Assembly (NCBI GenBank): GCA_004335835.1
Contig: RWJK01001534.1
Location: 32,558-96,557, forward strand
DNA: 64,000 bases
From: Scenedesmus sp. ARA3
Lineage: Eukaryota; Chlorophyta; Chlorophyceae; Sphaeropleales; Scenedesmaceae
Direction: 5' to 3'
A program made the position numbers and the translations under genes. A model generated the notes under the pieces. That model had not been told where the DNA came from. It made no database searches and worked only from the letters and a program-made list of their open reading frames with translations. Below, one piece after another: positions 1 through 64,000 of this stretch. Numbering within the stretch: position 1 is the first letter of the stretch; each line of letters opens with the position of its first letter.

Positions 1-14
1 CCCTTGTGTTCCAG

Positions 15-888
15 GCCTGCTGCAGCACATGCCTGGGCTGGGCGTGCGTGCGCTGCGCTACAGCATGCTTGTGGATGATGGCAAGGTGACCGTGCTCAAC
101 GTCGAGGAGCCAGGTGGGTAGACAAGTGGGTTTTAATAATTTATACGTTTGGGTGTGTACATGAGAGGAATGCGCTACAGCATGCTGGTGGACGACGGCA
201 AGGTGACCGTGCTCAACGTCGAGGAGCCAGGTGGGTAGACAAGTGGGTTTTAATCATTTATACGTTTGGGTGTGTACATGAGAGGATGGCGCTACAGCAT
301 GCTGGTGGACGACGGCAAAGTGACCGTGCTCAACGTGGAGGAGCCAGGTGGGTAGACAAGTGGGTTATGAAAATGTGCACGTTTGGGTGTGTACATGAGA
401 GGATGGCGCTACAGCATGAATGTTGATGACGAGGTGGTACAAGGTGGGTAGACGAGTGGGTTTGTACACTCGGTTGTGTACATAGGTGGGGATGCGCTAC
501 AGCATGCTGGTGGATGATGGCAAGGTGACCGTGTTCAACATACAGGAGCCAAATGGTGGCCAGAGGGGGTGTGTTCTTATCTTACCAGACCTTGTATGCT
601 GATAGAGGATGACTCTCGTCTGACATGGCAATCTGGTTGCCGGTGTATTTTCTGGGGGTTGGTCGTGCTCCTGCTGCACCACTCGCAGAAGGCAAGCCCT
701 GCACACAGCACAACGGCCCATGGCTTCAAGTTGCGCGTGCTGCAACAAACATCATGACTGCTTGCTGCATGCTTCGCTGCTGGTGCTGCTGCTGCTGTGT
801 GCATCGTGCAGGCGGCAAGTCGTACAAGATCAGCGGCCCTGGCCACATGCTGGAGGACCTGGCTCGTGTGAAGGGCCAGCAGGCGTGA
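15..888 (+). CDS. Type II peroxiredoxin, 3' end (partial)
   Basis: This is the 3' part of a thiol peroxidase of the PrxII/PRX5 family, which reduces H2O2 and organic hydroperoxides. Two exons are clear: 15-113 (reading LGVRALRYSMLVDDGKVTVL, then NVEEPG) and 812-888 (GGKSYKISGPGHMLEDL and on to a TGA stop at 886-888). The phase is consistent: the first ends one base into a Gly codon and the second supplies the other two. The family pattern is R-x-(S/A)-x-L-V-D-D-G-x-V near the C-terminus, followed by the final SG-x-x-ML helix. The peroxidatic Cys lies upstream, outside the window, so catalytic competence cannot be judged. Between the two exons lie four extra copies of the first exon's 3' part, listed separately. 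Family assignment is firm; the localisation (cytosol, plastid or mitochondrion) is unknown. Confidence 0.82.
55..560 (+). repeat. Five tandem copies of a peroxiredoxin exon 3' end
   Basis: The motif gcgctacagcatgct starts at about 55, 172, 289, 406 and 494, giving spacings of 117, 117, 117 and 88 bp. Each unit holds the last ~60 nt of the upstream exon (RYSMLVDDGKVTVLNVEEPG), its donor gtgggtag, and ~55 nt of intron. Copies two and three are almost identical to each other; copy four has lost much of the coding part. Only the first copy has the complete exon with a good acceptor (ttccag at 9-14). The others are either alternative exons or inert echoes. Confidence 0.9.
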
Positions 889-929
889 GCTGGACTGCCA
901 TTACTGTGCGGCACAGTCTGAGCTGAATT

Positions 930-1956: not shown

Positions 1957-3846
1957 ATGGCGGACGTGAGGCCGTTTCGTGTGTCTGTGCCCGAGAGCGA
2001 GCTGAAATATCTGAGGCAGAGGCTTGACACAGCAAGGTACCCCGATATCCTCACAAACATAGCACCCTGGGAGGATGGAACGGACCTAGATTACTTCAAG
2101 GTGGGATCTTTTACTGTCAGCAGCAGCGTGCAGGCAGATGCGGCCCAGTTACTGCCACAACAGCACAAGAACAGCAGCTGCTGCTGCCAGCAGTGCTGCA
2201 TTGGAGAACCACAGCCATGGCAAAGCTGCATTCCTGCAAATGATCTTCACGACTTACATCGTTGCGATCCAGCTTCAAAACCCTACAGATATTAAGCAGC
2301 GGCACACGCTGCTACTCGAACTGGCCAGCAGCTGTGCATGCATGCACTGGGACACATCCTTTGCACCAAGCGCTGCTGCTGCTGCTGCTGCTGCTGCCAG
2401 CCTGCTGCGCTCACAAGCACACCGCCACTGCTGCCCTGCAGACTTCCACTGACTGCAGGAGGCCGTGCTCAACAGCAGCACGCAGTTCACCCCCTGCTCT
2501 AAGCCCCGCTGCTGCTGCTGCTGCTGCTGCTGCCACACCCACAGACCTTTTTTGACTACTGGCGGCTGTCATACGGCTGCCGCAAATGTGAGGCTGTACT
2601 CAACAGCAGCGCGTAGTTCACTCAAGCACTGCTGCTGCTGCTGCTGCAGACCTTCATTGACTACTGGCGCCTGTCATACGACTGGCGCAAATGGGAGGCT
2701 GTGCTCAACAGCAGTGCGCAGTTCACGGCCACCATCCGCGGCATCCAGCTGCACTTTGTGTGGGAGCAGAGTGAGCGCAAGGACGCCATCCCGCTGCTGC
2801 TGCTGCACGGCTGGCCCGGCAGCTACTTTGAGGTGGGGTGCGGGAGGGGGTTGGGGTGGGTGGGTGGGTGGGAGAGAAGGTGTGAGGGCCTGCTGCGCAG
2901 CTTCCAGCTCATGTTTTGACAGCAGTGTCGAGTTGGTAGGGGCTGGTGGTGCTGCTGCACGGCTGGCCCGGCAGCTAGTTCGAGGTGCGCTGCTGAGACA
3001 GCCAGAGTGGCAGGGGCTGGTGATGCTGTGGGCGAGTAGGCTAGTCATAGTTGTGCTTGCTGTGCTTGTGAGTGCTGCTGCACGGCTGGCCTGGCAGCTA
3101 CTTGGAGGTGCGGCCTGGAGGGGAAGGGGAATGGACTGGGTGGGTGGGAGAGAAGGTGTGAGGGCCTGCTGCGCAGCTTCCAGCTCATGTTTTGACAGCA
3201 GTATTAAGGCCGGGCAAGGTCACAGCAGTAGCATCTGCAGAAGCTGTCTAGCAGCCATGCATGCAGCTTGCAGCGCACACAAGGCATACTGCAGCTGCGC
3301 GCCATGTGAGGTTTGCTGCTCGTGTTGTGCTGCTGCAGTTCCACAAACTCATACCCATGCTGAAGGCCACAGGTGCGCTTGCTGATGTGAAAGGCTTAGT
3401 TGAAGATTGTGTCAGAGTTGTAGGGGCTGCTATTGTGCATGTAATGCGTGCTGCTGACATTGTGCTGCTGCACGGCCCCAGGTGTGCGCAGACACATCAT
3501 GTGCTGCTGAATGCAAACCGACAGAATGGTGTTGTCACAAAGTTGTCGCCTTACAGCCAGCATTCAGGCTGGTGATACACATGCATGCTGCAGCTGTGGT
3601 CTATGCAATGGTGGGAACATCGCAGTGTCTGTTCACTGCTGCCAGCGCTGCCAGCAGCACATGCTTGTTGTTGTTGTGCATCTCAGGCAGCCCGACACAC
3701 TGTACAATGCTGTGCTATCTGCACATTGCTCTGCAATGGAGCTATGCAGGTCGCCTCCCAACGTAAGTTTGCGCTGTGTCAACTTTGTGCCATCATAATG
3801 CAGGCCGCTACCACATCGTGGCACCCTCACTGCCAGGTGCGCTCAC

Positions 3847-3882
<36 letters not shown>

Positions 3883-4033
3883 GAACAGCAGCAGCAGCGG
3901 CCCCTCATCAGGCGTTGCTTTACACCAGCCAGCACAGCCATGAGGAGGCCGACTTATGGCAGCAGTACAGCTGGTGTTAGCGCCAGCCAGAGAAGCCGCT
4001 GCATCTGATGTTGTCTAACCTATAATCAGCTCG

Positions 4034-4073
<40 letters not shown>

Positions 4074-4462
4074 CTATGGCTGGTCGTCAGCAGCCAGCGA
4101 GCGGGGCATGGGAGTGACTGCCATCGCCGGCATCATGGACAGGTGACACCTGCTGGGCATGCTGTGTGCAACAGCGAAGTGTGTGCAGCTGGCAAACCCA
4201 TATCTGGTGGCAGTGCTGCTTTCTAAATCAGTTGCAGCGGGGCATGGGCGTGACTGCCATCGCCGGCATCATGGACAGGTGACGCCTGCGCTGCTGCACA
4301 TGATGTGTTACGCTGCTGCCTGAAATGTTGCAGTTCATGTGAAGTGAGTGCCCCAGTGCTGCTTGCTTGCTGCCTTGATTGCGGCATTCATTTTTGCTGT
4401 CACCATGTTGCCAACTGCCGCCCTGCTGTTTGTACTGCTGCTGCCGCTGCTGCTGCTGCTGC

Positions 4463-4498
<36 letters not shown>

Positions 4499-7400
4499 CC
4501 TGATGTCTCAGCTGGGCTACAGGCGCTACCTGGCCCAGGGCGGCGACTGGGGGGCCATCATCTGCCGCGCACTGGGAGTGTGAGTGGGTGCTTGGTGGGA
4601 GGCTGTGCTGCTGTTGGCTTGCATGTTGTACTGTTTTGCACGTTGTACTGTTTGAGGGTGTGTTTAGGCCAGGGGCTGGGGGTTGTGCAAGGACAGCGGA
4701 TATGGGCTGTAGGTAGGGCGACTGGGGTGCCATCATCTGCCGCTGGGAGTTTGAGTGGCTCATGAGTGGGCCTAGGGATGCTGCCGCTGCTATATCTGCT
4801 GCATATGGCTTAAGCAACAAAGCTGCAGCAAGGGTAGGCTGCAGTGTTCCCAGATGTGGCGCACTTCGTGATGCTGTCGGCTGTTCAACAGGTCACCAGA
4901 CTTTACTCCAACAGCAGCGCAACCTGCCCCTTCATATTTTGGCGCGGTCAGTGCTGCTGGTGTCCCATGCAATGCGAGGGCCTCGCCAGTGACACCTCTG
5001 TTGACAGCTGACTGGCTGCGGCGTGGACATGCTTTTACCTTCAAGTACCATGCAGGTACCACTCCAGCAGCTGTGCGGGCATCTAGCTGAACATGTGCGT
5101 AGCAGGTGTGCTGGCTGACTGGTGTCAAACATGATGCATGATGCTGCCTGCTGCTTTCGCCTTGCAGGTACCACTTCGGCAGCTGTGCAGGCATCCACCG
5201 CAACATGTGCGTGGCAGGTGTGCTGGCTGACTGGTAGGCTGACTGGTATGCTGCCTGCTGCATTCGCCTTGCAGGTACCACTCGGGCAGCTGTGCGGGCA
5301 TCCACATCAACATGTGCGTGGCACCGCCCAAGCTGACCAACCCGTGGCACCTGGCACAGGTGCGCGGTTGTACACGGTGTTGGGGCCCAGTGGGGAGGGT
5401 GTTGATCAGGATCCAACAGCTGCTGCTAATGATGGTAATGCTGCTGTGCCTTGTGTAGTTGCTCGGTTGTTTGTTGCAGTACGCCAACACCTGGTTCAGC
5501 CCTGGCACCCTGAGCAGATACATAGGTATTGAAGCCAACCCATATTTCCCAGCTGCATCCATTTCACGCTGCATGCGTGCCAATGCAGCTGCTGCCTGCC
5601 TGCCTGCGTGCCTGCCGTGCTGCGTCAGGTGGCCAATGCGTGGCTGGCGCCGCGGCTGCCGCTGACCATGAGCGAGGCAGAGCTGCAGGGCGTCACGGTG
5701 GGTGTTGGGATCAGGGCTTAGGGAAATTAAAACCTCAACCTCATAACGCTCAAACTCGCTTGGGGTTCAGGGTTTGTGCCCAGACCCGCGAGTGAGGTCG
5801 AGCTGCTGGGTGTGGCGGTTTGCTGCTGTTGACTGGCGGGTCGCCCGGCAGGGTCAGCGGCTTCCGTGCTGTTTGTTGAGCTGCGTGCTAGTGCCCGGCT
5901 ACAGCTGCTAGCTGTGGCTGCTGTATAATGTCCATGCGGAGGTTCTGTGGCAGTTGCTGGCAGCAGTGAGGCAGCGAGGAGCGCCCAAAGAGGTAGCAAG
6001 GCTAGCCGAGGCTGCTGCTGCATTAGTTGGCAGTGCAGCATGAGCGCCGGCACGTGCATTGCTTCCAACGGGTGCCTTGTATTGTTTTGAAACTGACTTG
6101 CAGCCTGAAGTTGTTATGTACTGCTGTGTACTGCCTTGCATCTGTGCTTCATCAGGCCATGCAGCGCTTCATGCGTGATGAGACAGGCTACCAGAAGATC
6201 CAGGGCACCAAGCCGCAGACGCTGGCGTACGCGCTCACGGTGCGGGTGCATTGTGTATTGTATTTGTTTGAGCACGTGTACATTGTGTGGTGTATGTTCG
6301 CAGCTGAGGTGACAGCCGGGGCACCGTGCAACCATGCATGCTGCTGCTGCTGTTCCCCTTGCATCGAAATTGAGTGGCAGGACTCCCTGCTGGGCGTGGT
6401 CGCGTGATGTTGGAAAATATGTTCAAACCTGGAGGGACTGGGGAACTCAACATGCATACTCCTGCATGCCGCTGGTGCTGCTGCTTGCTCTTGCAATGTT
6501 TTTGTTTGACCGTTACACACCAGGACTCCCCGGTGGGCCTGGCCGCATGGATCCTGGAGAAAATCCGCACCTGGAGCGACTGCGGCGACACACTAGACAA
6601 CGCGCTGAGCAAGGACAAAGCACTAAACCAACATCTGCATCTGCTGCGCTGGCACCAACTATTTGTTTTTGTATCCCTGCACGCTGCTGCTGCTGCTTGC
6701 TCCGCTGCATTGTTTCTGGACCCCCAGGACTCTCCGGTGGGCCTGGCTGCGTGGATCCTGGAAAAGGTCCGCACCTGGAGTGATTGCGGCGGCGTGCCCG
6801 ACAACGCGCTGAGCAAGGACGAGGTGCTGACCAACATCTGCGTCTACTGGTTCAGCGGGCGCATCGCCAGCAGCATGCGGCTCTACAAGGAGAGCCTGCG
6901 CAACAAGTGGGTGGGCTGCTTTTGATTTGAGTTTGCTGGAACTGCGCAGCTGCAACTGCTAGAATGATTGGCTTGCTGGCCTGACAGCAGACAGTGTGGC
7001 CGTGGGCTGTGTTTCAAGGTAGTGCTTGCTGTGCTTGACAGCAGCAAGCATGACTGTACCGCTGGTTGTGCTTCTCGCAGGTGCCTTCAGTGTTCTGGGT
7101 GTGCCATGCTTGACAGCAGGTGCTGCCGCCCCTGCAAGAGGACCAGTATAGGTGTCGGCTTAGCTGCGCCAACTCCACTGAGCGCTGGACCTGCCACGTC
7201 CAACGGGCGTTGACTTGTTGTGTCTGTTTGCTGCTGCCTCAGGCTAGAGATGCAGAAGCTGCTGGGTCCCTACTGCAGCACCCCAACAGGCGTGGCCATC
7301 TTCCCAGGTGGGTGGGCTACACCGCAGCCACAAATGCTGCAGGTCAACAAGCGCATCAAACAGCACACGCAGCCTGGTGTGGTGCCTCACAGCAAGCGCA

Positions 7401-7519
7401 TTTCTGCATGTTCCTTGGGGAGCATGAGGTACAAATCAGAATCACCAGCATGAAGCATTGCATGCTGGTGATCACATCTTGCCTCCAACACGCTGCTGAC
7501 GAGCCCTGCTGCTCACCAC

Positions 7520-7563
<44 letters not shown>

Positions 7564-8197
7564 CGAGCTGCACCGGCCGCCGCAGTCCTGGGCCAAGTCG
7601 GTCTACAACATACAGCTGTGGAGCCAGATGCCGCAGGTGCGTGGGTGTGTGTTGTGGCTGGCTTGCTGGCTGGCTTAGTTCAGGTTCCCTGAGGGGGAAA
7701 GTTGGCTGCTGCTGCTGCTGTGCAGTGCTGATGCGGCTGATGGCAGAGCATGCCGCAGTGCAAAGTTCATGCACATTTTGACAGAGAACATGCATCTTGA
7801 CGCACACAAGGCAGGATAGCAGTACATCCACAAAACCCATATGTGTTGTTGTGCGCTGCTGTATATTGCAGCATGCCCACCATTGCCTCACGCTACAGAT
7901 GTGGCAGTAGATATCGTATATCTGCTGCCCGATGATCCACCCAATCATAAGCTTCTGAAAGTCAAATCACCTGGGACACCCCATGCTGTGCACTGCCACC
8001 TGGGACCACATGTCACCTGAGACACCCCATGCTATGTATGTTCACCCCAGAACTGTTTGCCACAGCTGTTTGCCTCCTGCTGCACTGTACTGTTCCTGCA
8101 GGGCGGCCACTTTGCAGCCTGGGAGCAGCCGGCGCTGCTGGCGGGTGAGATCGCCAAGTTTGCTGACCTGGCTGAGGCCAAGGGCTGGCTGGCGTGA
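1957..8197 (+). CDS. Microsomal (EPHX1-type) epoxide hydrolase
   Basis: An alpha/beta hydrolase that opens epoxides to diols. The N-terminal EHN segment (FRVSVPESELKYLRQRLDTA) marks the microsomal/juvenile-hormone subfamily. My exons: 1957-2100, 2650-2832, 3339-3372, 3804-3836, 4073-4142, 4499-4579, 5275-5359, 5480-5525, 5629-5697, 6156-6239, 6728-6906, 7243-7307, 7563-7636, 8102-8197, about 413 aa. Catalytic marks: oxyanion motif HGWPGS (exon 2), nucleophile Asp in GGDWG (exon 6), and the distal block DSPVGLAAWILEKVRTWSD (exon 11). The His is in GGHFAAWEQP (last exon). Junction phases agree except between exons 8 and 9, where the model is one base off, so a boundary there is wrong or a small exon is missing. 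Many exon-edge copies lie in the introns. There is no strong N-terminal anchor, unlike animal EPHX1. Family is sure; the substrate is unknown. Confidence 0.88.
2441..3112 (+). repeat. Echoes of both edges of epoxide hydrolase exon 2
   Basis: Upstream of exon 2 are two degraded copies of its 5' end (about 2441-2490 and 2543-2620; the second has TAG where the exon has CAG-type codons). Downstream are two copies of its 3' end (about 2946-2990 and 3070-3112), covering the LLLHGWPGSYFE segment and the donor. One of these reads GS-stop. A further ~60-bp block (2860-2917 and 3140-3197) is also duplicated. All copies have the same orientation as the gene. Confidence 0.85.
4235..4758 (+). repeat. Echoes of epoxide hydrolase exon 5 and exon 6 ends
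   Basis: About 4235-4281 repeats the 3' end of exon 5 (RGMGVTAIAGIMD plus the gtgac donor). About 4715-4758 repeats the 3' end of exon 6, including the catalytic GDWGAIICR segment, but shortened. Both lie in the intron just downstream of the parent exon. Confidence 0.82.
5049..5274 (+). repeat. Two upstream echoes of epoxide hydrolase exon 7
   Basis: Copies at about 5053-5106 and 5166-5219 repeat the acceptor and first ~45 nt of exon 7 (YHxGSCAGIHxNMCVA). The spacing is about 110 bp. The first copy has a stop where the exon has an Ile-His pair. The third unit, at 5275, continues into the full exon and is taken as real. Confidence 0.85.
6378..6625 (+). repeat. Alternative or echo copies of epoxide hydrolase exon 11
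   Basis: A copy at about 6523-6620 has its own acceptor (cacaccag) and reads DSPVGLAAWILEKIRTWSDC and on to DNALSKD, colinear with exon 11. A shorter damaged copy starts near 6378. The reading frame stays open from 6374 through the true exon to 6925. Use of the upstream acceptor would therefore give an in-frame longer protein rather than a frameshift. Confidence 0.75.
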
Positions 8198-8199
8198 AG

Positions 8200-8820
8200 A
8201 TGATACACAGCACAGCGCCTGGCAGGCAGCAACGCCTGGCAGGCAGCAACGGCAGGCAGGCAGGCAGCAACTGCAGGCAGGCAGGCGGGCAAGCAGGCAG
8301 GAACGGCAGGCAGGCAGGCAAGCAGGCAGACAGCAGCAGCAGCAGCAGCTGGCTGCAAATGCACAGCACAGCGCCTAGCAGGCTGCAGCGGCTGGCTGGC
8401 TTTACATGCACGCGCTGGCCGGCCTGGCAGAGACCAAGGGCTGGCTGGCTCAAGGTGCTGCCATGCGCAGCCAGCTGCAGGTTGGCTCACATGAGGGGCC
8501 ATGGGGCTGCGCTGGTGTGGAGCCGGCAAGCAGCACAGCGCCTGGCAGGCAACAGCGGCTGGCTGGCTACAAAAGCATAGCACAGCGCCTAGCAGACAGC
8601 AGCGGCTGGCTGGCCTGGCTCAGGCCAAGGGCTGGCTGGCATGACAAGCCAGCGGCATAGCTGACAGCGAGGGCTGGCTGTCTGAGAAGATAATTCAGTT
8701 GTACCGGCCTAGCTGAGGCCAAGGGCTGACTTGGCTGAGGCCAAGGGCTGGCTGGTGTGATAAGCTGACAAGCAGCACAGCACCTGGCAGGCAGCAGCGG
8801 CGGCTGGCTGCCACAAAGAA
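8200..8820 (+). repeat. 3'-flank amplification of the epoxide hydrolase stop end
   Basis: The last ~30 coding bases (DLAEAKGWLA-stop) recur at about 8418-8450, 8610-8644, 8703-8728 and 8730-8762, separated by aggcaggcagg-type microsatellite (8215-8340) and ggctggctggc runs. This lies wholly downstream of the stop, so it is 3' UTR or flank. Confidence 0.85.
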
Positions 8821-22147: not shown

Positions 22148-22194
<47 letters not shown>

Positions 22195-22269
22195 GGCGGC
22201 GGCGGCGGCTGCGGCTGCGGCTGCGGCTGGGACCGCTGCTCCTGCTTGTGCTGAATCGCCAGGTGTGGT

Positions 22270-41730: not shown

Positions 41731-41766
<36 letters not shown>

Positions 41767-42043
41767 CGGAGGTTGGCGCAGCGCGCCGCGCCGCCACAAC
41801 CCCTGCTGGATCATGTCATACACGGGGAAGCTGTACGCCTGCAGCAGCAGCGGCAGCAGCAGCAGGGGGGAGCAGCAGCAGCACCATCAGTAGACATATG
41901 ATTGGGTTAGCACAGTGTCACAGCCCCTGCTGGATCATGTCATACACGGGGAAGCTGTACACCTGCAGCAATAGCAGCAGCAGCAGAGCAGCAGCAGAGC
42001 AGCAGCAGAGCAGCAGCAGAGCAGCAGGTGGAGCAGCAGCAAG

Positions 42044-42100
<57 letters not shown>

Positions 42101-46500: not shown

Positions 46501-46647
46501 GCCCACCATTGCGGTCACCTGCAGCAGCAATACAGTACATCTGACATGCTTACATGCCATATGCAGACTCTCTGTCAACACCTTGCTTTACACAGCCACA
46601 GTACGGCGGGCCCAGCACGCCAGCGCCCACCATGGCGGTCAGCTGCT

Positions 46648-46690
<43 letters not shown>

Positions 46691-46961
46691 AGTTAGTGTA
46701 CAATAAATGGCAAGCTCAGCACGCCAGCGCCCACCATGGCGGTCACCTGCAGCAGCAGCATTACATTACATCTGACATGCTTACATGCCATATGCAAACT
46801 CTCTGTCAACACCTTGCTTTACACAGCCACAGTACGGCGGGCCCAGCACGCCAGCGCCCACCATGGCGGTCAGCTGCTGCAGCAGCAGCAGCAGCAGCAG
46901 CAAAGTTAGTGCACAATAAATGGCAAGCTCAGCACGCCAGCGCCCACCATGGCGGTCACCT

Positions 46962-46995
<34 letters not shown>

Positions 46996-51900: not shown

Positions 51901-51953
51901 GTAGCCCTGCACTGCCGGGTACTTGCCCCGCAGGATCTTCAGGATCAGCGCAC

Positions 51954-51993
<40 letters not shown>

Positions 51994-54760
51994 GCAGCGC
52001 AACCGGATTTTCAATTGGTTTGCACAGCAACCTAATCACGCACACGTGGCAACGCATCTACGCTTTGGCTGCATAGGGCTGATTCCACCGCCTGCTGCAG
52101 ATGTGAGCACTGTGGTTGCAGCCTGCCCATCTCATGCTTCAGCAGGATAGGCAGCAGTAAGCAGATGCTGTGCTTGTGTTTTGCTTGGTGTTGCGTGCAC
52201 GTGCCGCCCGCCTGCTACCCTGCTGCTGCAGCACAGCGCGCCGCACCTGGTTGTCTGCGTCAAAGGGGTGCTTCTGTGTGCAGCACTCGTACAGGCACAC
52301 GCCCAGCGCCCACACGTCACTCTTTGTGTTGTACGGCTTGTCCTCACACATCTCTGCGGGCAGCAGGTGCAGCACAAAGAGCAGACACAGCAGTGTGTGA
52401 GCATGTGCTGCGCACGACACAACATGCACGTCACGCTTTGTGTTGTAGGGCTTGTCCTCACACATCTCTTTGGGCAGCAGGTGCAGCACAAAGAGCAGAC
52501 ACAGCAGTGTGTTGTCAGTTGCATCACACAACCCAAGGTTGGCGTGCAAGTAGATTGAGCATGGCTGGCGGCAGAGCACAGCGCTGTGCTAGCACAGGAT
52601 CAGAAGTTAAGCTTTTGGTTCCAAGCTACATATGTTGTGACGCAACAGCGGTTACTGCTGTATGTGGGCCTTTCCTGCAAACCTCAAAGAATAGCCACCA
52701 CCAATTGTGCTCTTCTCACCTGGCGACAGGTAGTAGGGCGTGCCGATCACTGTCTTTGCAAAGTTTGTGTTGGTGGTCAGCACCTGCAGCAGCAGCCATG
52801 GCAGCGCAGCACAAGTTCAAGCTTACACGCGCTGCTGCTAAAGAAAGCGGATGGTTGCCACAACTGCCAAGGCACACATCACCCGGATGCAGTGGCTGCA
52901 CGCGCTTGTGTTTCAGCCGCATGCACGTCAGCTGATGCACCTAAATGCAAGCACGGCCTGTACAGAGTTGCTAGCTACCTTGGCCACTCCCAGGTCTACT
53001 AGCTTTACGTTGTGCTGCTGGTCCAACAAGTTGTTGAGCAAACCCGACACCCCAAAATCCACCCCACCCCCTAAACCCGATAAATCCAAACACTTCTGTG
53101 CAGGTTGTCCCACGTTGGCCACGCCCAGGTCTCCCAGCTTCACGTTCAGCTGCTGGCCCAGGAACTGAGCACGCCCTAAAACCAACCCTAATCATAAACA
53201 AGCGGTATACAGCTTTCTCCCACCTTGGCCACGCCCAGGTCCCCCAGCTTCACGTTCAGCTGCTGGTCCAGGAAGGTGTTGAGCAAACCCGACAGCCTGA
53301 ATCCACCCCACCCCCTAAACCCTTAAACTAAAACACTGGGGTACAGGTTTTCCCACCTTTGCTACCCCCAGGTCCCCCAGTTTTACGTTGAGCTGCTGGT
53401 CCAGAAAGGTGTTGAGCGTCTTCATGTCCCGGTGCAGCACCTTGCGGCTGTGCATGTGGTGCAGACCCAGCAGCATCTGCAGCAGCAGCGCAGCAGATGC
53501 AAGCATGTGATGATCCGCTTGCTACAGTTCCAGTGGAGTGTGTGATGAAGCACTGCAGAAACAACCCTGCTGTCCTGTTTCACAGCTGTTGCTGTCGCAA
53601 GGCTAACAGCACATGCTATGCTGCCTGCCAACACAGCCCCAACTGGCACAACTGGTGAGTTGCAGCACAATGGCATTGTGGGTTTCAGCTATGCACTGCA
53701 CTAGCAGCAACCAATGCATTCCATACAGCTTTGCTGCATGTGCTGCCATGCTGAGTCAGCATTGCTGACCTGGATGAAGAACTTCCAGATGATCTGCTCC
53801 GGCAGCTTGCTGGCCTGCCTCTTTATGAACTCGTACAGGTTGCCCGCTGCTGCATACTCCATGCAGATGTACAGCTTGCCCTGCAGCAGGCAGCAGCAGG
53901 CAGCAGCGACAGCAGCACTTGCATGTGTTCATACAGCACAGTAATAGCCAAACACCTGGAAAGACAAGCTGCATGTCATAGGAGTCAAGTACAGTGATGC
54001 ACAGCAAACAGAGCTGCCCCAGCTGTGTTATGGATTGACAACTGCTCCTGCTGTTGCACACAGGGTGCCGCTCGCTGGTGCTGCAATTACTGGTGCTGCA
54101 ACTACAGGAAATTGCCAAATCGTTGCTGCACGTATGGCAGACAGCAGGAGCTGTGGCTGCAGAAGTGCAGTGCTGCTGGTGGCATCTGCTGCTGCTGGTT
54201 CTTATTGCTGCATCTGATGCTGTTGTAGTTGTTACCTTGTCCAAGAAGGAGTCAAAGTACTTGATGATGTACTCAGAGTCAAGGGAGCTGAGGATCTGCA
54301 TCTCTTTGATGCACTCCTCTTGCTCCTGCAAGCAGCAGCGCACAGACAGTAAGCATGACCTGGCACTGCCTTCAACAGGCCTAGCAAGAACCTTCTCAGC
54401 TGCTGCACAACACAGATACAAACGACTCATGTTGAAGCATGTATATGTGATTGTGGCAAGTGTTTCCCTCTGTGGGTGTGAAGCTGATGAGTTACCTTTC
54501 TGCTCATGCCCTGAAGGTCCACTTCTTTCAGGGCGTATGTGTTCCTGCAGGAGTTGCACAGCTCTGTGAGCATCTCGTCGCGTGAAACGGCTTCTAAAGC
54601 CGTATACGCGTTCAATCCTCATCTGGGAGGCTAGCCTGCAGTTCCTGTGCAGTTTCCCTCCACACCTGTCCACTTTTCTCGTAGCCCTGTACACTGCACC
54701 GTAGCTGCCAGTACCTATTTTCTCTTTAACAATAAAGTCTTCTAGCGTCGACCTGGCCAT
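48903..54760 (-). CDS. NEK (NIMA-related) protein kinase
   Basis: A Ser/Thr kinase of the NEK family, usually tied to cilia, basal bodies and the cell cycle. Thirteen exons: 54666-54760, 54496-54544, 54236-54325, 53770-53880, 53357-53476, 52720-52783, 52247-52353, 51859-51954, 51097-51195, 50707-50788, 50261-50500, 49481-50094, 48903-49118; 1983 nt, 660 aa, phases consistent. Kinase marks: glycine loop [19 protein letters not shown] lysine, HRDMKTLN catalytic loop, and GDLGVAK (DLG in place of DFG). Then [20 protein letters not shown] and the final HRKRPD. The domain spans ~1-260. The C-terminal half is Ala/Ser/Gln-rich and low in complexity, ending with a helical block ([12 protein letters not shown] ... 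[10 protein letters not shown]). ATG at 54760 gives MARSTLEDF; an upstream codon in frame is less likely. Exon edges are echoed throughout. Confidence 0.9.
49196..49245 (-). repeat. Upstream echo of the NEK last exon
   Basis: This repeats [16 protein letters not shown] with its acceptor about 120 bp upstream of the real exon start at 49118. Confidence 0.85.
50789..51096 (-). repeat. Two ~154-bp units between NEK exons 9 and 10
   Basis: Near-identical units (about 50789-50942 and 50943-51096) contain the exon 10 sequence ([18 protein letters not shown]) with acceptor gtggcccag, followed by a shared ~70-nt intron stretch. The reading frame from exon 9 stays open into the first unit, so tandem-acceptor or exon-repetition isoforms are possible. 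Confidence 0.88.
51505..51730 (-). repeat. Two downstream echoes of NEK exon 8 donor end
   Basis: The exon end reading [10 protein letters not shown] with its donor recurs at about 51506-51535 and 51672-51710, with the ctcctg-cttgctggt intron filler also shared. Confidence 0.85.
52430..52490 (-). repeat. Upstream echo of NEK exon 7
   Basis: A copy of the acceptor and segment [11 protein letters not shown] sits ~120 bp upstream of the real exon, with a shared ggcagcaggtgcagcacaaa block. Confidence 0.88.
52975..53290 (-). repeat. Three downstream echoes of the NEK activation-segment exon
   Basis: The exon 5 end [16 protein letters not shown] with donor recurs at about 52977-53038, 53110-53165 and 53223-53282, each followed by aaacccgacancc-type filler. 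These copies carry the kinase metal-binding DLG motif. Confidence 0.9.
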
Positions 54761-55729: not shown

Positions 55730-58073
55730 TTACGCCTCTGTGGCTTTGCGCCCCAGGGACCCAAAGCGAGCAAACAAGGTCAGCAGCAGCAGCGCAGCGA
55801 GCGAGGCGCAGCCGCCACCGTAGAAGCAGCCGGTGTTGCCCAGGGCCCTGCTGTTGGTCCAGTCGCTGAGGCAGCCCGCCAGCGTGTTGCTGGCAACCAG
55901 GGCAAAGCCTGCGGGCGGCAAATAATAAGCAGCAGTAGCAATGGCAGATGGTGATTTGCACAGCAGCCGGTGTTGCCCAGGCCCTCCTGTTTGTCCAATC
56001 GCTAAGGCGGCCAGCCAGCGTGTTGCTGGCCACAAGTGCAAAGCCTGCAAAGAGCAGACATATGTACAGCAGCAACGGCACATGATAAATGCACAGCAGC
56101 CGGTGTTGTTCAGGCCCCTGCTGTTTGTCCAATAGCTGAGGCAGCCTGCCAGCGTGTTGCTGGCCACCAGTGCAAAGCCTGCAGAGAGCAGACATATGTA
56201 CAGCCGCAACGGCAAGATTCAGGCCCCTGCTGTTGGTCACGTCGCTGAGGTATCCTGCCAGCGTGTTGCTGGCCACCAGCGCAAAGCCTGCGAATGTAAT
56301 ACAGATGCAACGCAGCGGCAGCGGCAGCATATGAGGTAACAGAAGGTACACACCAAGGTGATGTGCGTTGTTTACGGGATGAACACAGCCTGCCAGCGTG
56401 TTGCTGGCCACGAGCGCAAAACCTGCAGGCGGCAAGCAGTAAACAGCACCAGCGGCCAAACTGTGAAATGCACAGCAGCCGGTGTTGCCCAGGCCCCTGC
56501 TTTGTCCAATCGCTGAGGCAGCCTGCCAGCGTGTTGCTGGCCACAAGTGCAAACCCTGCAGAGAGCAGACATATGTACAGCAGCAACGGCACATGGTGGA
56601 ATGCACAGCAGCCGGTGTTGCCCAGGCCCCTGACGTTTGTCCAATAGCTGAGGCAGCCTGCCAGCGTGTTGCTGGCCACCAGTGCAAAGCCTGCAGAGAG
56701 CAGACGTACGTACAGCAGCAACAGAAACGCATGGTGAATGCACAGCAGTCAGTGTTGCAACAGCCCCTGGCGTTAGTACTGTCGCTGAGGCATCCTGCCA
56801 GCGTGTTGCTGGCCACCAGCGCAAAGCCTGCGGATGGAAGAGGTATGTACAGCAGCAGCGGTGGCAGGCGTTGCACTAATCGCTGATGCCTGGCATGCTG
56901 TTGTACGGCATGTTGTGTGGACCACTGTGGTGGTGGAGTGTGCAGGCAGCCAGAGAGAACTCGCAGACCCTTGTTGGGCCTTCCTGAGTCCTTACAAAAG
57001 CTATGCACGATACGAACACAGGATGAGAGCAGAGAACTCTGAAGCCTTCCAAAGTGCCAGCTCGCTCACCCAACAAGAAGTCAGTGAAGCTGACTGCGGT
57101 GCCGCCCAGCTTGCCAATGCCCGGCACGCTGCTGTGTGGCATGTGGGCGGCCACCATGGCGGTGATTGTGGAATGCGTGAGCGCCATATGAATGCCCAGC
57201 AGCGACGCTCCCAAGAGCATGCCTGCGGCAGGCAATAGCCGCAGCAGCATGAAAGGCAACAAAGTTGAGTGCAGATCGCAATGACAGCTAGCATGGTGGA
57301 GAGCGTCAGCGCCATGTGCACACCCAGCAGCGCCGTGGCCAGGGACATGCCTGCGGCAGCAGGCCCTGCGGCAGCAGATAAAGTAAGAAAGGTGCCGGTG
57401 CCCGGCACGCTGTGCGGCATGTGGGCGGCCACCATGGCGGTGATTGTTGAATGCGCCATATGGATGCCCAGCAGCGCGGCCCCAAGGAACATGCCTGCAC
57501 CACATATATATCACATCTCAAATCAGGAGTCAATGCAGAGCAAGCAGGCAGCAAGCTTAGTGCAGTGCGGCAATTGGTCGCCACGCAGCTATGCAATCTC
57601 ATCATTGACGTGAGAAGCAAGCAACCATGGAATGGATTATTGGTGTGCCGCAAGCAGCTCCGTGTGGGTTTCCAGCAGCGCAGCGCCCAGCAACATTGCC
57701 TGCAGCATCAAAAGCAGTCTGAAAAACAAACAAAAGCTGTTTGGCGGCCGCTCACCTGGCATGTTGCCTGTCAGCTGCGAGGCGAAGACCCAGTTGCCCA
57801 GAGCCATGGCTGCAAGGCCCACGCCCAGCAGCCGGTTGCGCACCTGCGCAGCAGCACAGACACAAACAGCAGCAGCAGCAGCAGCAGTAGCGGCAGCAGC
57901 AGCAGCAAAGGTCGCAGCTGGCATGTGCTTGCAGAAGAATTTTTTACAAAAGGTCACATCGCAGGCTGCAACTGCATCATGTCAACATGCTCAGGCGCTC
58001 AGTTGCCCAGAGCCATGGCTGCAAGGCCCACGCCCAGCAGCCTGTTGCGCACCTGCGCAGCAGCACAGACACA

Positions 58074-58130
<57 letters not shown>

Positions 58131-58591
58131 GTTATGCCAATGTTGCAAGGCCCACGCCCAGCAGCCTGTTGCGCACCTGCGCAGCGGCAGCGGCAGCAGC
58201 AAAGCTTGCCATCCGCAGGTACTTGCACGATGACGCCGAGCGCTATATAACGCATGCCTGCTTTCAGCAAGCTATCCTGCACAGCATATGCTCTAGCTGT
58301 ATTCTAAACACAGCGAGTGCTTTTCCCTGTATGCTGCTGCTGCTGAGCTTGGAAAGCGGTTCTTTCAGCAACGTCTGCATGCTGGCAGTCACCTAGCCTG
58401 TGCAAAGGCTGCCAATAACCGGTGCACACTGCAATGTTGTTGTGTTCATATCCGCTTGCCTGGATGCTGCTGCCGCTGAGCTTAGACAGCGGCGCTGTGA
58501 GCAGCGTCTGCAGCAGGCTGTTGAGCAGGTACAGCAGCGGGATGTGACTGGCAGGCATGACCTGCAGCAGCAGCAGCAGCAGCAGCAGCAT

Positions 58592-58622
<31 letters not shown>

Positions 58623-59400
58623 AGGGCACTGTGCAGGTGCATTGTGATGTCTGCAGTAGGCTGTTGAGCAGGTACAGCAGCGGGATGTGGCTGGCAAGCA
58701 TGACCTACAGGGCAGCAGCAGCAGCAGCAGCAGTAGCAGGGCAACAGGCGATTAGCAGGGCTGTGGTGCAGTTGCTTTAATGATGTCTGCAGCAGGCTGT
58801 TGAGCAGGTACAGCAGCGGGATGTGGCTGGCAGGCATGGCCTACAGGGCAGCAGCAGCAGCAGCAGCAGCAGAACAACCCGCAATTAGCAGGGCTGTGGT
58901 GCAGTTGCTTTGATGATATCTGCAGCAGGCTGTCGAGCAGGTACAGCAGCGGGATGTGGCTGGCGGGCATGACCTGCAGCAGCAGCAGCAGCAACAAGCA
59001 GCAGCCAGTCAGCAGGGCACTGTGCAGTTGCACTGGTGATGCTTGCAGCAGGCTGTTGAGCAGGTACAGCAGCGGGATGTGGCTGGCAGGCATGACCTGC
59101 AGCACAGCAGCAGCAGCAGGCAGCAGCAGCAGGCAGCAGACAATCAGCATGGCAGTGTGCTGTGATATCAAAGCGAGTGAAGTACACCACAGCAGCAAAC
59201 CGCACCATCAAGTGCCTGGCAGCCGCCCCCCCACCTGTTTGGCCCTCAGGCCGACAAAGGCAGCATCAAAGCGGGTGAAGTAGACCACAGCAGCTACTGC
59301 CAGCGCCTGCCAGTAGGCTGGCTTGAAAGCAGCCACCAGCGCCCGAAGCTTCTGAGGTAGGCTGTACTGTGGGGCAGGTGATGGAGTGTCCCCTGCTGCT

Positions 59401-59431
<31 letters not shown>

Positions 59432-62420
59432 CTGTGCTAGCTGCAGTACTGCCAGCCTTGCCTGCAGGGGTGCCAGCAGATGAGTCTGCAGCAATTGCAG
59501 GCAAAGTTTGAACATCAGCAATGATTGCATATGGAACATGCATGTGTTTGCTCAGCATGCAGGTGTTGCAGAGTTACGCTGAGCGTGTGCATCCATACAT
59601 GTGCAGATGCTGTGCGTGTTTCACGAGCCAGGATGTGTGCAGTACTGCGCATACACTGAGGTCTGGTTTGTTTCTGAGGAAACTACAGCAGACAGCCAGC
59701 CCCAACATTACCTGTTGATGTGCGGCCCTGGTGCAGTCTGCAGCTAAGCTCATCCCTGAATTGCTGCAGCAGCAAGGAGCCGTGGGGGTGCAAGCAGAAC
59801 AAGCAGGCTCAGGGCACACAGAACTGCAACCTTAGATCGCAGACGTTGTGGTGTAGCATTGTCGCGGTTGAGGGCGTTTAACGGTAGCCGTGTCAGGCAA
59901 TGCCATAAAGTGCAGCAAAGCGCAGCAGCCAATACACAGCACATTAAGCGCGGCACATCTGCTATATTAAGTTGCAACTCAGCTAATTGCTCGATGTTTG
60001 CCCACGTACCCCGCTGTGCGGACAAGATACAAACATGCTCACCGTCATTAGCCATGCAGCAGCAACAGCGGGTGGTATGACAGCAGCCACGAACGTGGCC
60101 TCATACGACTGCCCTGTTGCAATGAACACCAGCCCTGCCACTGAGGAGCCCAGCAGGGCACCGGCAGTAGCCAGGGACTGCCGCAGGCCTGCAGAGCAGG
60201 GACAGGAAACAGGGACAGCGTGTGGCAAGACACAAGCATAAGTAGCAGCAGCGGCGGCAGCAGCAGCAGCAGCAGCATACTGCCCTGTGCCAATAAGACC
60301 AGGCCAGCCACTGAGGAGCCTAGCAGGGCGCCTGCAGCAGCCAGAGACTGCCGCAGGCCTGCAGCGGCACGCATGAGAGAGAAGTTGTATTATGACACAA
60401 GCAGCAGCAGGAGTCAGCAGCTGCTGGTCCACTGACACCACCGCACATGCACCCAGAACGCACTAAAACAGCAGTGATTAGAAGCAAGCCCACCACAGAT
60501 GGAAACACTGCAGCATATGCAGCAAGCAGCCTTTTGCACTACAAGTGCTACCTGACATGCAGCAACACCAACGGCCCGTACAGCTGCCCTACTTGTCCTG
60601 GCAAACTGTGCAGGCAGCAACTTACCAAAATCAATTGTAGCCATGAACTAGCTTGCTGGCCACTCACCATACGCAGCATCTGGCGCATCTCCACTCCTTT
60701 TTGCCAGGTCATTAGTAATCGCCTTGGCAGGGGCATCTCTTAAGCCCTTAGCCATGCGATCCAGAAACCTAGTGGCCATAAACCACGCCACTGTGGCGCC
60801 AATGCCTGCCACAGCATTCACTGTGCCCAGCGCCGCAAACATCAGCTTGCAGGAAAGCGTTATGAAGGTTCCTGCAAGCAGCATAAACAGTTGCAGAAAA
60901 AACATTTGCAATAGCACAATGCAACATAATGCGCACTTCACTTTAGAAGAGGTGTGGCCGAGCTGTAAGATGCGAGCGCTGTAAGTTCTCTTCCATTGCT
61001 AGAAGGTGCCCCCGCCACCATGGCTGCTTATGTTTAGAACCTCAGTTGTTCAGGTGTTCAGGTGCGCTGCTCATCCTGCTGTTGGTTCTAGCATTACCTG
61101 CAAGCAGCACGCAGACCTGGCAGTCCAGTATGTCCCCAGCCACGCCTGCAAAGCCCTTGGCGAATTGGCAGAGCATCTGCGCCACGCCCTGCGCTGCGCC
61201 GATCTGCAGCAGCAGTTCAGTTGTGGCAGTTGCAGCAGTTGCGGCACGAGGGGTTGGGATGGCAAAAAATGCAAAGGGTGGCACAAGCAAAAGAACGATT
61301 ATGCACGGCACTTGGACTTATAAGAACCAAGGTAAATGCACAGTTACTCACCTCCAACTTGAAGGCTTCAAGCAAACCTAGACCAGGAGATGTGCGGCAT
61401 GTGCGCATACTCCTCGTACTGCTCTGATCTGCTTGCCCAGGCATGGCCAACGGCAAAATACACTCTGATGTCAACATTATACATAGATTGCAATGCCGCT
61501 CAAGTTCTCAGATGATCTGCCTCTGCTGCCGCTGCTGTGCGCTGTGTGCTGCTTGTCCCGTGCCCAGCATCATTGCTTGCATTATCCTCACCTTGGTGTT
61601 GCTCAGCCCCAGCACGTCTTGCAGGTACACTGGCAGGTAGGCGTCATGCATGTAGGTGGCAAAGCTGAACAGCAGCTGGCTCACAGACAGAGCCACAAGC
61701 TTCCTGCAAACAGCAAATGCAGCAGCAGCAGCAGCAGCGGCGGCGGCCGCGGCGGCAGCAGCAGCAATGCGGCCGTTGGTGTTGCTGCTGCTTTTACGAT
61801 GATGTTGATGTGCTGTGTTCAAGGTGCTGATCAAGCTGTTTCGCAGCCAGCCGCAGACAGCTCCGCGCCAGTTGCTGCCTGCTACATTCCACAATCAACA
61901 ATGCTGTAGGCACGCTGCTGCTGCTGCTGCCGAGGCGCATTGGCCACACAGCAACACAGGGCGCTGGCTGCTACTACTACACAAGCTGCAAGGGAACGTG
62001 TAGCCGCACAGCTGATGCATTTCAACCACCAATCAGTGCGTAGCTGCAGGTGTTATTTGGATTTGAATCTCACCTGTTGCAGGCAGGGTCCTTCACTACC
62101 TGGAAGATGTTTAAAACCCTAGGCAGAGCCAGCCCCTTTGCTGGCTCATCAGCTGGCTGATCTGCTGTTGCTGCCGCTTGCAATCGCTGGAGGGAAAGCC
62201 TCAGGCGCTGAGGGTTGTGTGGCGAGGCGGGGTGCAGGTCGTGCTGAGGCCTTTGCAGCAGAGCAGCAGGCACTGCCCTGCAGCGTGCTGTTGCTGCTGC
62301 TATGCTGCAGGAAAGCCTTGCTGCTGCCATTCCTGCGACTGGGTGGGCTGTGAAACAGCATGGTCGACGCTGTACAGTGCATGAGGGCATGATGATGTGA
62401 GTTGGGTGCGGCAGCAGCAT
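55730..62420 (-). CDS. Major facilitator superfamily transporter
   Basis: A 12-helix secondary transporter. Eleven exons: 62074-62420, 61592-61703, 61098-61203, 60668-60871, 60043-60188, 59712-59763, 59235-59485, 58460-58561, 57756-57843, 57070-57222, 55730-55908; 1740 nt, 579 aa, phases consistent. The first MFS half has QLLFSFATYMHDAYLPVYLQ and DRMAKGLRDAPAKAIT, the loop-2/3-like signature resembling bacterial MFS DR-GKG-R-APR proteins. It also has LRQSLATAGALLGSSVAGLV. After a Ser/Ala linker the second half has YFTRFDAAFVGLRAKQ, MPASHIPLLYLLNSLL, NRLLGVGLAAMALGNW, GMLLGASLLGIHMALTHS, and GFALVASNTLAG. The N-terminal ~100 residues are Ala/Arg/Ser-rich and resemble a plastid transit peptide. 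The exon 8 donor is GC (ag|gcaagc). The substrate is unknown. The ATG at 62541 is in another frame and was not used. Confidence 0.85.
55960..56865 (-). repeat. Seven upstream echoes of the MFS last exon
   Basis: Units of ~110-130 bp repeat GFALVASNTLAG(C)LSDWTNSRGLGNTGC with the acceptor at about 55966, 56096, 56212, 56388, 56473, 56606 and 56748, next to the parent (55842-55908). Shared filler gagagcagacatatgtacag marks the same unit. The copies differ in whether they read C/Y at one site and in small indels. Confidence 0.9.
57300..57706 (-). repeat. Three upstream echoes of MFS exon 10
   Basis: The exon start G(M)xLGAALLGIHMALT recurs at about 57305-57355, 57410-57497 and 57650-57706; the middle copy extends through TAMVAAHMPHSVPG. 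The parent is 57070-57222. Confidence 0.88.
57998..58190 (-). repeat. Two upstream echoes of MFS exon 9
   Basis: VRNRLLGVGLAAMALGN with acceptor recurs at about 58000-58055 and, shortened, at 58142-58180, separated by long cag runs (58076-58128). Confidence 0.88.
58640..59230 (-). repeat. Four upstream echoes of MFS exon 8 and one of exon 7
   Basis: VMPASHIPLLYLLNSLLQ with acceptor recurs at about 58652, 58790, 58918 and 59040 (each ~60 nt, spacing ~125-140 bp). About 59160-59220 echoes the end of exon 7 (VVYFTRFD). Confidence 0.9.
60285..60370 (-). repeat. Upstream echo of MFS exon 5
   Basis: A copy of GLRQSLAAAGALLGSSVAGLV with acceptor, ~175 bp upstream of the real exon. It stays open and highly similar. 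Confidence 0.88.
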
Positions 62421-62856
62421 CACGGCGAGGGCAGAGGACGATGTCCAGATCAGAGGAGCAGCAAGGAGCACTTGTCCATAGATTCCCCGACACTCTCGGA
62501 ACACTGAGCGATGGTACAAGCAACGGACGCGTTAAAAACATTGCTGGATACGTTCTGGCACGTTAGAGTCCTGGGTGTGGCTGCTCAAAAGCAGCAGCAC
62601 GGCGAAGGCCGTAGCAGTTACGCCGTAACAGTCACAAGCGCCAGTTCCGCTCAACCGAGCAAACGTTCCCTATAGAAACACGATTCAGGTTGTAGATGAC
62701 CTTACTATCGCCTATGAAGGCTTGCAGGCCGCGTTGTTGTGCCGCAAACTGTTGTCAACTTCGTCGAAGTGGCTGCCTGTGGTGTTATCTCACAGAACAT
62801 GATACAAAAGGTGTGCTGAAGCTGACCAAGACAAAAACAAACGGGCGGCAGGGACC
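62421..62856. promoter_or_regulatory. Divergent promoter between MFS and DnaJ genes
   Basis: These 436 bp separate the start codons of the minus-strand transporter and the plus-strand DnaJ gene, so both promoters must sit here. The AT content is somewhat higher than around it. No defined element is seen. Confidence 0.5.
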
Positions 62857-64000
62857 ATGCGGTGCCTGTACGAGGTGCTGTCAGTGGACAAGGCAGCAGA
62901 CGATGACACAATCAAGAAAGCTTACCGGAAAGCAGCCTTGATCTGGCACCCAGGTGTGTGCAACTGTACCTTGCCAGTTTGTAGATAGGTCCCTAGGACA
63001 GCAGGCGTAACAAAAGCAGCTGCAGCTGCAAGTCAGCATCTGTGAGAGTTGCTGCTGCTGCTATGCTGCTGCACTGACAGCAAAACGTCAATCACAATGC
63101 CAAACCGCTCCTGCAAACCCAGAACAGCAAGTTTGACTGCTCGTGATAACTTGACTAAATACCCCAGCAGTCAACACACTTAGCGGTGTGTTGCCTGAAC
63201 AGAACTTGTTGTGTAATTGCCTGCAACTGCACACCTGCTAGCAGCCTAGCCCACATGCACACCTTCTGCCCTGCTCTTCTGATAGCACGTGCTCTGACGC
63301 ATACTTGTTAGCAAGAAACTCAGTAATTGCCTGCGGTCACCCTGCTGCGGCTTGCTGCCGCCCTGACACAAACCAGACAAGAACCAGCAACTGCTGGCAA
63401 AAGGTTGATGCAGCCTTTGATGCGGCCCTCACAGCTGTGGATGGCTGCACGCAGCTCAGTAAACCTCCCTGCTGCTGCTGCTGCTTGCCTTGCTGACCAG
63501 ACAAGAACCAGCTCAGGCTGGAGGAGGCCAATGCGGCTGGCAACAAGTATCTAAACTTTGCACAGCTGCATACATACAGCTCAAGAAAACTTGCCTCCTG
63601 TCACCCGCTGCTGCTTGCCTGCACAGACAAGAACCAGCACCGGCTGGAGGCTGATGCGGCCTTCAAGCATCTCAGCAGTGTGCATGGTTGCGTTCGGCTC
63701 AGTTAACCTGCCTGCTGCTGCTGCCCCCTTTTTTGACCAGACAAGAACCAGCACCGGTTGGAGGAGGCTGATGCTCACTTCAAGGAGATTCAGAATGCTT
63801 ACGAGGTGCTATCAGACAAGCACGAGCGCGTGTGGTGAGCAGCAGCAGCAGCATCATAATAACACAGCAGGAGGAGCAGGAGAAGCAGTAGAAGCAGCAG
63901 CAGCAGCAGCAGCAGCAGGTTTTTAGGAAATTCAGAATGCATACGAGGTGCTGTCAGACAAACACGAGCGCGCGTGGTGAGCAGCAGCAGCAGCAGCATA
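62857..64000 (+). CDS. DNAJC21/JJJ1-type J-domain protein, N-terminus (partial)
   Basis: The first exon (62857-62953) starts MRCLYEVLSVDKAADD and runs to KKAYRKAALIWHP; the second (63741-63834) gives DKNQHRLEEADAHFKEIQ then NAYEVLSDKHERVW. Together they form a J-domain with the HPD motif split by an intron inside the Asp codon. Phase is consistent (one base plus two). The start M-(K/R)-C-x-Y-E-x-L and the end LSD-x-x-ER-x-W are typical of DNAJC21/JJJ1, cofactors of Hsp70 in late 60S ribosome maturation. The rest lies past the window. Several echoes of exon 2 flank it. The J-domain is certain; the subfamily is likely. Confidence 0.82.
63366..63685 (+). repeat. Three upstream echoes of the DnaJ exon 2 start
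   Basis: The acceptor and DKNQHRLEEADA segment recur at about 63372-63445, 63495-63545 and 63622-63680 in different states of decay. The downstream intron sequence ctcagtnaacctncctgctgctgctg is shared as well. Spacing is about 120 bp. Confidence 0.88.
63920..63985 (+). repeat. Downstream echo of the DnaJ exon 2 end
   Basis: A copy of EIQNAYEVLSDKHERxW with its donor lies ~90 bp beyond the real exon, after a cag run. It has its own AG acceptor before GAAATTCAG. Confidence 0.88.

Follow-up and report, generated by a model that had tools for sequence, protein, structure and literature searches.

Edges of exons are copied, together with their splice sites and in the same orientation, into adjoining introns of the green alga Scenedesmus sp. 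ARA3. The copies, here called echoes, were noticed in a 64,000-base stretch of contig RWJK01001534.1 (the window) from the letters alone, and that observation is confirmed by the analysis reported here: exon-edge copying in introns is real. As a set, the echoes have diverged in the manner of coding sequence that is competent for splicing, unlike neutral DNA. Tandem duplication across splice junctions is supported as a process that enlarged pre-existing introns. The explanation that we tentatively prefer, giving it slightly less than an even chance, is that junction-crossing duplications were combined with unequal exchange between haplotypes.

Direct and inverted matches within 1 kb of each other were counted in a self-comparison of the window (E<=1e-3). 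There were 111 direct pairs and no inverted ones, which bears out the same-orientation copying described by the sequence-only reading; inverted copies were thus not equally frequent. At E 1e-6, 99 of 100 self-matches fell within 1 kb. Dispersed repeats or transposons were rejected as the source of the copies, with one distant pair per 100 self-matches and no inverted repeats nearby. The window contained 46 arrays covering 18,407 of its 64,000 bases. It is one part of an assembly of 87.3 Mb in 1567 contigs, from which 20 further stretches were sampled: 18 lay on arbitrarily picked contigs, one adjoined the window on the same contig and one surrounded an arbitrary match. One stretch was all N, and the other 19 (167,170 readable bases) held 149 direct pairs, one inverted pair and 69 arrays amounting to 17 % of the bases, with arrays in 15 of the 19. 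In chaperonin loci (64,886 bases) there were 129 direct pairs and no inverted ones, and 31 % of the bases were covered. The smallest spacing per array had a median of 125 bases (quartiles 112-146; 170 arrays from window and loci). These spacings bunch at 100-140 bases, and no cause of the narrow size was found. They fell into classes 0, 1 and 2 modulo three 56, 50 and 64 times. The exon-derived part of the copies had a median of 57 bases (10-90 % range 34-89), and aligned copies were mostly 70-97 % identical.

The position of the arrays was judged from nine homology-based gene models made with a purpose-written spliced aligner. Three are genes of the window (an MFS transporter, an epoxide hydrolase and an amino acid transporter), and six are models of five chaperonin genes elsewhere (CCT5, CCT1 in two parts, CPN60, CCT7 and CCT6) found via a search for Pfam family PF00118. 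This search was blind to repeats, but the choice of the five genes was made after viewing its table and was not fully blind, and contigs C1492 and C1032 showed doubled matches before loci were chosen for modelling. The homologue rows were taken from alignments in a structure database, some linking stretches being supplied separately. Exons 1-2 of the MFS model (61592-61703 and 61111-61203) were merged from different homologues and are out of frame with one stop; exons 3-11 are in the correct frame, and no echo was found at exons 1-2. The epoxide hydrolase product showed one difference, by eye in the spliced alignment, from Tetradesmus obliquus protein P0014 (398 amino acids), and the exons of this gene agree among P0014 and two relatives, the outermost ends excepted. 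This comparison leads us to assign the window to T. obliquus or a very close strain.

With an edge array defined by an overlap of 28 bases or more with an exon end, 38 of the 42 arrays in the nine models were edge arrays, four were confined to introns and none lay wholly inside an exon. Among the edge arrays, 8162-8814 lies where a last exon ends with its stop codon and not at a splice site. For a null placement, introns were first reduced to a single copy of each repeat and units were then scattered over them randomly, positions being barred where a unit would fall entirely within an exon or enclose one. Three arrays extending past the model ends were dropped, leaving 39. Arrays at an edge numbered 36 of 39, compared to 15.2 expected, or 21.5 when edges were given a double detection weight, and none of 200,000 simulations reached 36. 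This weighting reflects the expectation that a neutral echo next to an unchanging exon loses similarity half as fast as two neutral copies do. Tandem duplication of whole exons, as in mutually exclusive exons, was not the pattern: a complete exon is covered by only two of the 42 arrays (one over a 47-base exon of CPN60, the other over a CCT5 exon flanked by copies on both sides), and the other edge arrays hold one edge.

Direction was assessed with 132 probes of about 60 bases from exon starts, ends and middles. Exon-start probes had 48 copies upstream and 2 downstream, and exon-end probes 40 copies downstream and 9 upstream, so the earlier claim that start copies lie upstream and end copies downstream is mostly right; an inverted match was obtained for one of the 132 probes. 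A copy in the expected direction was present at 23 of 54 starts and 19 of 53 ends (42 of 107 edges), 88 copies in total. Nine of 25 mid-exon probes matched, giving 19 copies, of which 17 were within 10 bases of the offset of an edge copy, indicating that the unit reaches that far into the exon. A preference for exons starting with GT, as stepwise splicing might give, was not seen (9 of 23 starts with copies compared to 10 of 31 without).

Copies were present in eight of the nine models. Copying in nine of ten genes had been claimed for the window, and all four window genes that were checked had copies, the fourth being a NEK-type kinase with all three of its in-body arrays at exon edges. The phenomenon is, however, not universal: CCT6 (L035/L024/L049, contig C837), with seven exons and introns of 190-401 bases, had no edge copies at 11 edges. 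CCT5, in contrast, had copies at 14 of 22 edges, including six regular copies of exon 29467-29587 that are 107-108 bases apart. The intron-only arrays within gene bodies were 40718-41433 in the window, C1492:2199-2382, C1492:8312-8676, which abuts a truncated model, and C1552:105786-105976. In the last, a stretch of 72 bases is 97 % alike at an offset of 119, and this array is therefore probably recent.

Among the 38 edge arrays, 20 had a self-match extending over 0.85 or more of the period, which means that the spacers were duplicated along with the exon part; in the other 18 the unit is now recognisable only in part, and the tandem structure rests on spacing. Start copies had their own AG in 39 of 41 cases, and their pyrimidine tracts match those of the real acceptors in richness. 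As they carry an acceptor and a pyrimidine tract of their own, the units were cut from junctions that already existed, and they postdate the intron. Tandem duplication with intron growth, as proposed earlier, agrees with the lengths: the median intron was about 700 bases beside copied edges and about 290-335 beside uncopied ones. The mean intron of the models (58 introns) was 524 bases, or about 378 with arrays collapsed to one unit, so that about a quarter of the intron length in the modelled genes is due to extra copies. Intron growth is commonly ascribed to transposons or scattered small insertions. Here a gene's own exon edges would supply much of it, which may help to explain the long introns of T. 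obliquus, for which a table in PMC5966456 gives a mean of 462 bases compared to 230, 302 and 284 in three other Sphaeropleales.

The exon-derived parts of the echoes resemble the real edge more closely than the adjoining intron bases do. In the 88 junction-anchored copies the first 30 exon bases were 0.86-0.89 identical to the real edge, compared to 0.62-0.72 for the first 60 intron bases and a background of 0.53. Several pairs had heads 90-97 % alike beside near-background spacers, and in others the tails were as alike as the heads. Exon-echo differences fell on the three codon positions 86, 70 and 331 times (some echoes were aligned twice in this count, e.g. CCT5 8 START -241, -330); with duplicates removed, 134 of 3049 0-fold and 201 of 864 4-fold sites differed and the codon picture was unchanged. 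For a neutral cis duplicate, 0-fold divergence from the exon is expected to be about half of the 4-fold divergence. The 70 strictly anchored pairs gave 119 of 2766 (0.043) at 0-fold and 174 of 779 (0.223) at 4-fold sites, a ratio of 0.19 (bootstrap 0.14-0.26 over 39 edges), compared to 0.47-0.57 for simulated neutral cis duplicates taken through the identical alignment procedure. The ratio was 0.18 when one echo was used for each of the 39 edges, and also 0.18 without the MFS gene. Base composition was rejected as the cause of the codon-position bias, since C and G were replaced 2-4 times as often at third as at first and second positions. Faster silent evolution of the real exons was not seen either: private third-position changes numbered 6 in exons (eight edges) and 32 in 32 echoes, which is similar per lineage.

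The splice signals of the echoes were likewise retained. The splice dinucleotides were AG in 39 of 41 and GT in 25 of 29 echoes. Pyrimidine content before the acceptor was 0.66 in both echoes and real sites (background 0.48), and the donor score was 4.80 in echoes and 4.69 in real sites (background -0.21). Identity was high at the positions informative for the consensus (+1, +2, +3 and +5; -1 to -4) and lower elsewhere: at donors it was 0.97 at +5, 0.72 at +4 and 0.59 at +6, and ungapped identity deeper in the intron was mostly 0.2-0.6.

Other features speak for copies that are silent at present. Of 16 indels in the exon-derived parts, 14 were not multiples of three (a few alignments were counted twice); the 70 strictly anchored pairs hold 14 gaps. 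Echo-echo pairs with spacers at least 0.8 alike, which for this reason were taken as recent duplicates, differed 12, 8 and 17 times by codon position (P 0.19 against an even distribution, the pairs being non-independent). With diverged spacers the 0-fold/4-fold ratio was 0.28-0.30 for echo-echo and 0.13-0.19 for exon-echo pairs. Exon-echo divergence at 0-fold sites was 0.037-0.050 in all spacer classes, and at 4-fold sites it climbed from 0.165 to 0.239-0.295. The earlier description of copies "in all states of decay" was hence only half right, as amino-acid-changing differences from the exon stay mild at this level whatever the state of the spacer. On balance, it seems that the time spent as an echo was short and uniform, and that the separation from the resident exon was long and mostly under coding constraint. 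With one working edge per array and chromosome, two long-constrained units must have lived in different genomes, unless the echoes are used.

Coding-type divergence and kept splice signals, together with indels that nevertheless shift the frame, make many copies appear to be former working edges of other haplotypes. In the mechanism we propose, tandem duplications crossing a junction would arise with an intron tail, the splice site and mostly 34-89 exon bases, typically about 125 bp. The outermost intact junction would be the one used, making such duplications harmless, and duplications inside exons would be purged. With two units in place, homologous chromosomes that carry different haplotypes could recombine by unequal exchange and so set the working junction of one haplotype before or behind that of another. 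An echo would on this view be an exon edge that belonged to a different haplotype and was silenced recently, and the arrays would lengthen the introns. It is quite possible, if somewhat short of probable, that the introns are an archive of the exon edges of the population, in which former junctions of other haplotypes have recently been joined and silenced. In a bolder form, some echoes may still be used as alternative junctions.

Several results weigh against this proposal. The eight exon-echo pairs with similar spacers had a ratio of 0.30 compared to 0.5 for a neutral cis duplicate, echo-echo pairs with similar spacers had 0.56 compared to 1.0 for two neutral copies, and changes private to an echo in deep arrays were distributed 12, 16 and 32 by codon position (P 0.004). 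These ratios and the third-position bias of private changes could reflect present-day constraint. The overall ratio also varies by gene (CCT5 0.13, epoxide hydrolase 0.30, CCT7 0.40, the last with few sites). Alignability may favour edges, as slower divergence of the exon-derived part keeps old edge arrays visible for longer, and an edge weight far above 2 would shrink the edge excess, part of which would then be due to detection. No second haplotype, homeologue or paralogue of two pieces (1001 and 651 bases) was found in the assembly, where these pieces gave only short partial matches apart from themselves, so that no donor was visible. Finally, the model requires silent divergence between haplotypes near 18 %, which is very high within one species; introgression from a sister species would give an identical appearance.

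The main rival to haplotype exchange is that the echoes work today, as alternative exon ends, stepwise splice sites or decoys, with selection keeping both signals and coding content. Such a role fits splice signals that equal the real ones in strength and are conserved where they matter for function, and it fits the third-position bias, including that of changes private to one echo and of exon-echo pairs with similar spacers; in the potato RdRp gene (PMC4974935) a duplicated junction serves a new intron. Against it stand the 14 of 16 frame-shifting indels, spacing that is not tied to three, and similar-spacer echo-echo pairs that are near even by codon position. Splicing to an echo start would also leave the spacer in the mRNA unless another intron were present, and a common donor-acceptor pair that would remove the spacer was not seen by eye in the printed heads, for which no systematic test was made. 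We regard present-day function as possible but rather unlikely. Less likely again is plain tandem duplication in cis with neutral decay, in which copies confined to introns fade sooner and those inside exons are purged. About half of the arrays have the tandem structure that it predicts, arrays inside exons are absent, and the regular series of CCT5 copies fits as well. Against it, this process predicts a ratio near 0.5, as in the simulations, compared to the observed 0.19, and spacers decaying at most about twice as fast as heads, compared to several heads 90-97 % alike beside near-background spacers, and the edge excess persists under the double weight. As the whole story, plain cis duplication is disfavoured.

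Birth of the introns themselves by tandem duplication of exon sequence bearing AGGT, with the arrays as their origin, was suggested by the sequence-only reading and is unsupported by our results. The intron before MFS exon 55748-55908 is mostly array (959 of 1161 bases), and the mechanism is known elsewhere (PMC3443670), but the pyrimidine tract and AG that start copies bear place the intron before them, making this origin very unlikely. The possibility of an assembly or sequencing artefact is smaller still and may be regarded as negligible. Repeats of 100-250 bp can confuse assembly, but the copies are mostly 70-97 % identical and differ in a structured way, and arrays recur in 15 of the 19 readable sampled stretches and probably also in the genomic reading frame of a relative. 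That reading frame, P0141 from a related alga, runs through the amino acid transporter exon ending at 42657 into the intron and an apparent second copy of this exon end; residues 116-134 of this one protein match window positions 42708-42652 at 68 % (E 1.9e-4) in another frame. Exon-edge copying thus probably extends beyond this strain. A translated transcript of a related alga, P0140 (eukprot GHRQ01028065), seems to continue from exon 43204-43257 into the intron behind it, which points to retention of that intron.

For intron gain by tandem duplication, PMC3443670 and PMC4974935 refer to Gao and Lynch 2009 and Hellsten 2011. As in the AGGT model of such gain, the duplications found here are local, intragenic and tolerated since splicing removes the extra copy; in that model exonic sequence is duplicated and a new intron made, whereas here existing junctions were duplicated and existing introns enlarged. 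The wide effect on introns resembles that of introners, which however are dispersed copies of one element, whereas here each gene echoes its own exon edges; near-identical intron sequences shared by unrelated genes were not found in the window, the one distant pair per 100 self-matches belonging to a separate dispersed repeat. Intragenic minisatellites consist of head-to-tail units of about 100-200 bp in variable copy number. The present units are similarly arranged and sized, but each is tied to a splice junction and has a conserved exon part beside a spacer that has diverged. Reviews list tandem duplication among the mechanisms of intron gain (PMC3443670; see also PMC2891723), and a single duplication across an intron-exon boundary has been described for the potato RdRp gene (PMC4974935). 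The unit is of the same kind as that reported in potato, a direct tandem repeat over intron tail and exon head or over exon end and intron head (38 of 42 arrays). The potato case is a single event by which one gene acquired a new intron; here eight of nine models are affected, at both starts and ends and often with several copies, and the copies show coding-type divergence from each other. Junction-crossing tandem duplication is thus already known. No description of pervasive exon-edge copying in any genome was found in the open-licence PubMed Central literature, which is weak evidence that its pervasive occurrence is new.

If the haplotype explanation is true, one assembly gives several alleles for each exon edge, and within-gene recombination and silent diversity become readable from a single genome. 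The arrays also pose the question of how the spliceosome bypasses several equally strong sites to reach the outermost one.

The arrays located in the window genes are as follows, beginning with the epoxide hydrolase.

1957 to 8194, plus strand: epoxide hydrolase gene with 13 exons, host of the six arrays listed next, from spliced alignment to P0014 and two relatives.
2458 to 2726, plus strand: start copies of exon 2650-2832, upstream, with 77 exon bases in the array and offsets of 131 and 236.
2795 to 3202, plus strand: end copies of exon 2650-2832, downstream, with offsets of 122, 152 and 275.
4100 to 4289, plus strand: end copy of exon 4073-4142, downstream, with a 54-base match of 96 % at offset 136 and a spacer that is mostly unlike.
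4542 to 4758, plus strand: end copy of exon 4499-4579, downstream, at offset 175.
5048 to 5323, plus strand: start copies of exon 5275-5359, upstream, at offsets 112 and 219, with a self-match exceeding the period.
6461 to 6849, plus strand: start copy of exon 6728-6906, upstream, with 122 exon bases.
8162 to 8814, plus strand: repeats that include the stop-codon end of the last exon and extend downstream, in a GGCA-rich region, with no splice edge.

The arrays of the amino acid transporter come next, followed by the array for which assembly error had been suspected (46248-47076), in which the start of one transporter exon recurs upstream. There the copy near 46277 is presumably the real exon coding QVTAMVGAGVLGLPY, as judged from a family motif.

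40263 to 40663, minus strand: start copy of exon 40112-40328, upstream, amino acid transporter.
40718 to 41433, minus strand: intron-internal array of the amino acid transporter without exon overlap, an exception.
41558 to 42117, minus strand: start copies of exon 41477-41618, upstream, at offsets 110, 220 and 344.
42167 to 42751, minus strand: end copies of exon 42657-42833, downstream.
46248 to 47076, minus strand: start copies of the exon coding QVTAMVGAGVLGLPY, upstream, near 46503, 46612, 46843 and 47043.

The NEK-type kinase and the MFS transporter contribute the remaining arrays.

51406 to 51901, minus strand: NEK-type kinase, end copies of exon 51859-51954, downstream.
52313 to 52512, minus strand: NEK-type kinase, start copy of exon 52247-52353, upstream.
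52977 to 53417, minus strand: NEK-type kinase, end copies of exon 53357-53476, downstream.
55825 to 56867, minus strand: MFS transporter, seven start copies of exon 55748-55908, upstream, the array that fills most of its intron.
57112 to 57498, minus strand: MFS transporter, start copies of exon 57070-57222, upstream.
57791 to 58189, minus strand: MFS transporter, start copies of exon 57756-57843, upstream.
58506 to 59157, minus strand: MFS transporter, four start copies of exon 58488-58561, upstream.
59167 to 59294, minus strand: MFS transporter, end copy of exon 59235-59461, downstream.
60108 to 60364, minus strand: MFS transporter, start copy of exon 60043-60188, upstream.

Runs of the trinucleotides GCA/CTG are very frequent across the window (e.g. 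22148-22327, 41965-42099, 46407-46449 and 58057-58129). Some sit directly before acceptors (CTGCTGCAG) or within repeated units, and they might act as seeds of slippage. An uninterrupted minus-strand open reading frame (24464-31366, 2301 codons) has no direct repeat array of the type examined here inside it, and the array 24145-24287 lies just outside. A short dispersed repeat occurs in an MFS intron at about 60869-60987 and also at 48039-48103 in the window. It accounts for 13 of 15 other matches of the tested piece, with 77-96 % identity on at least ten other contigs; it is unrelated to the exon-edge copies and might be an intron-borne element.

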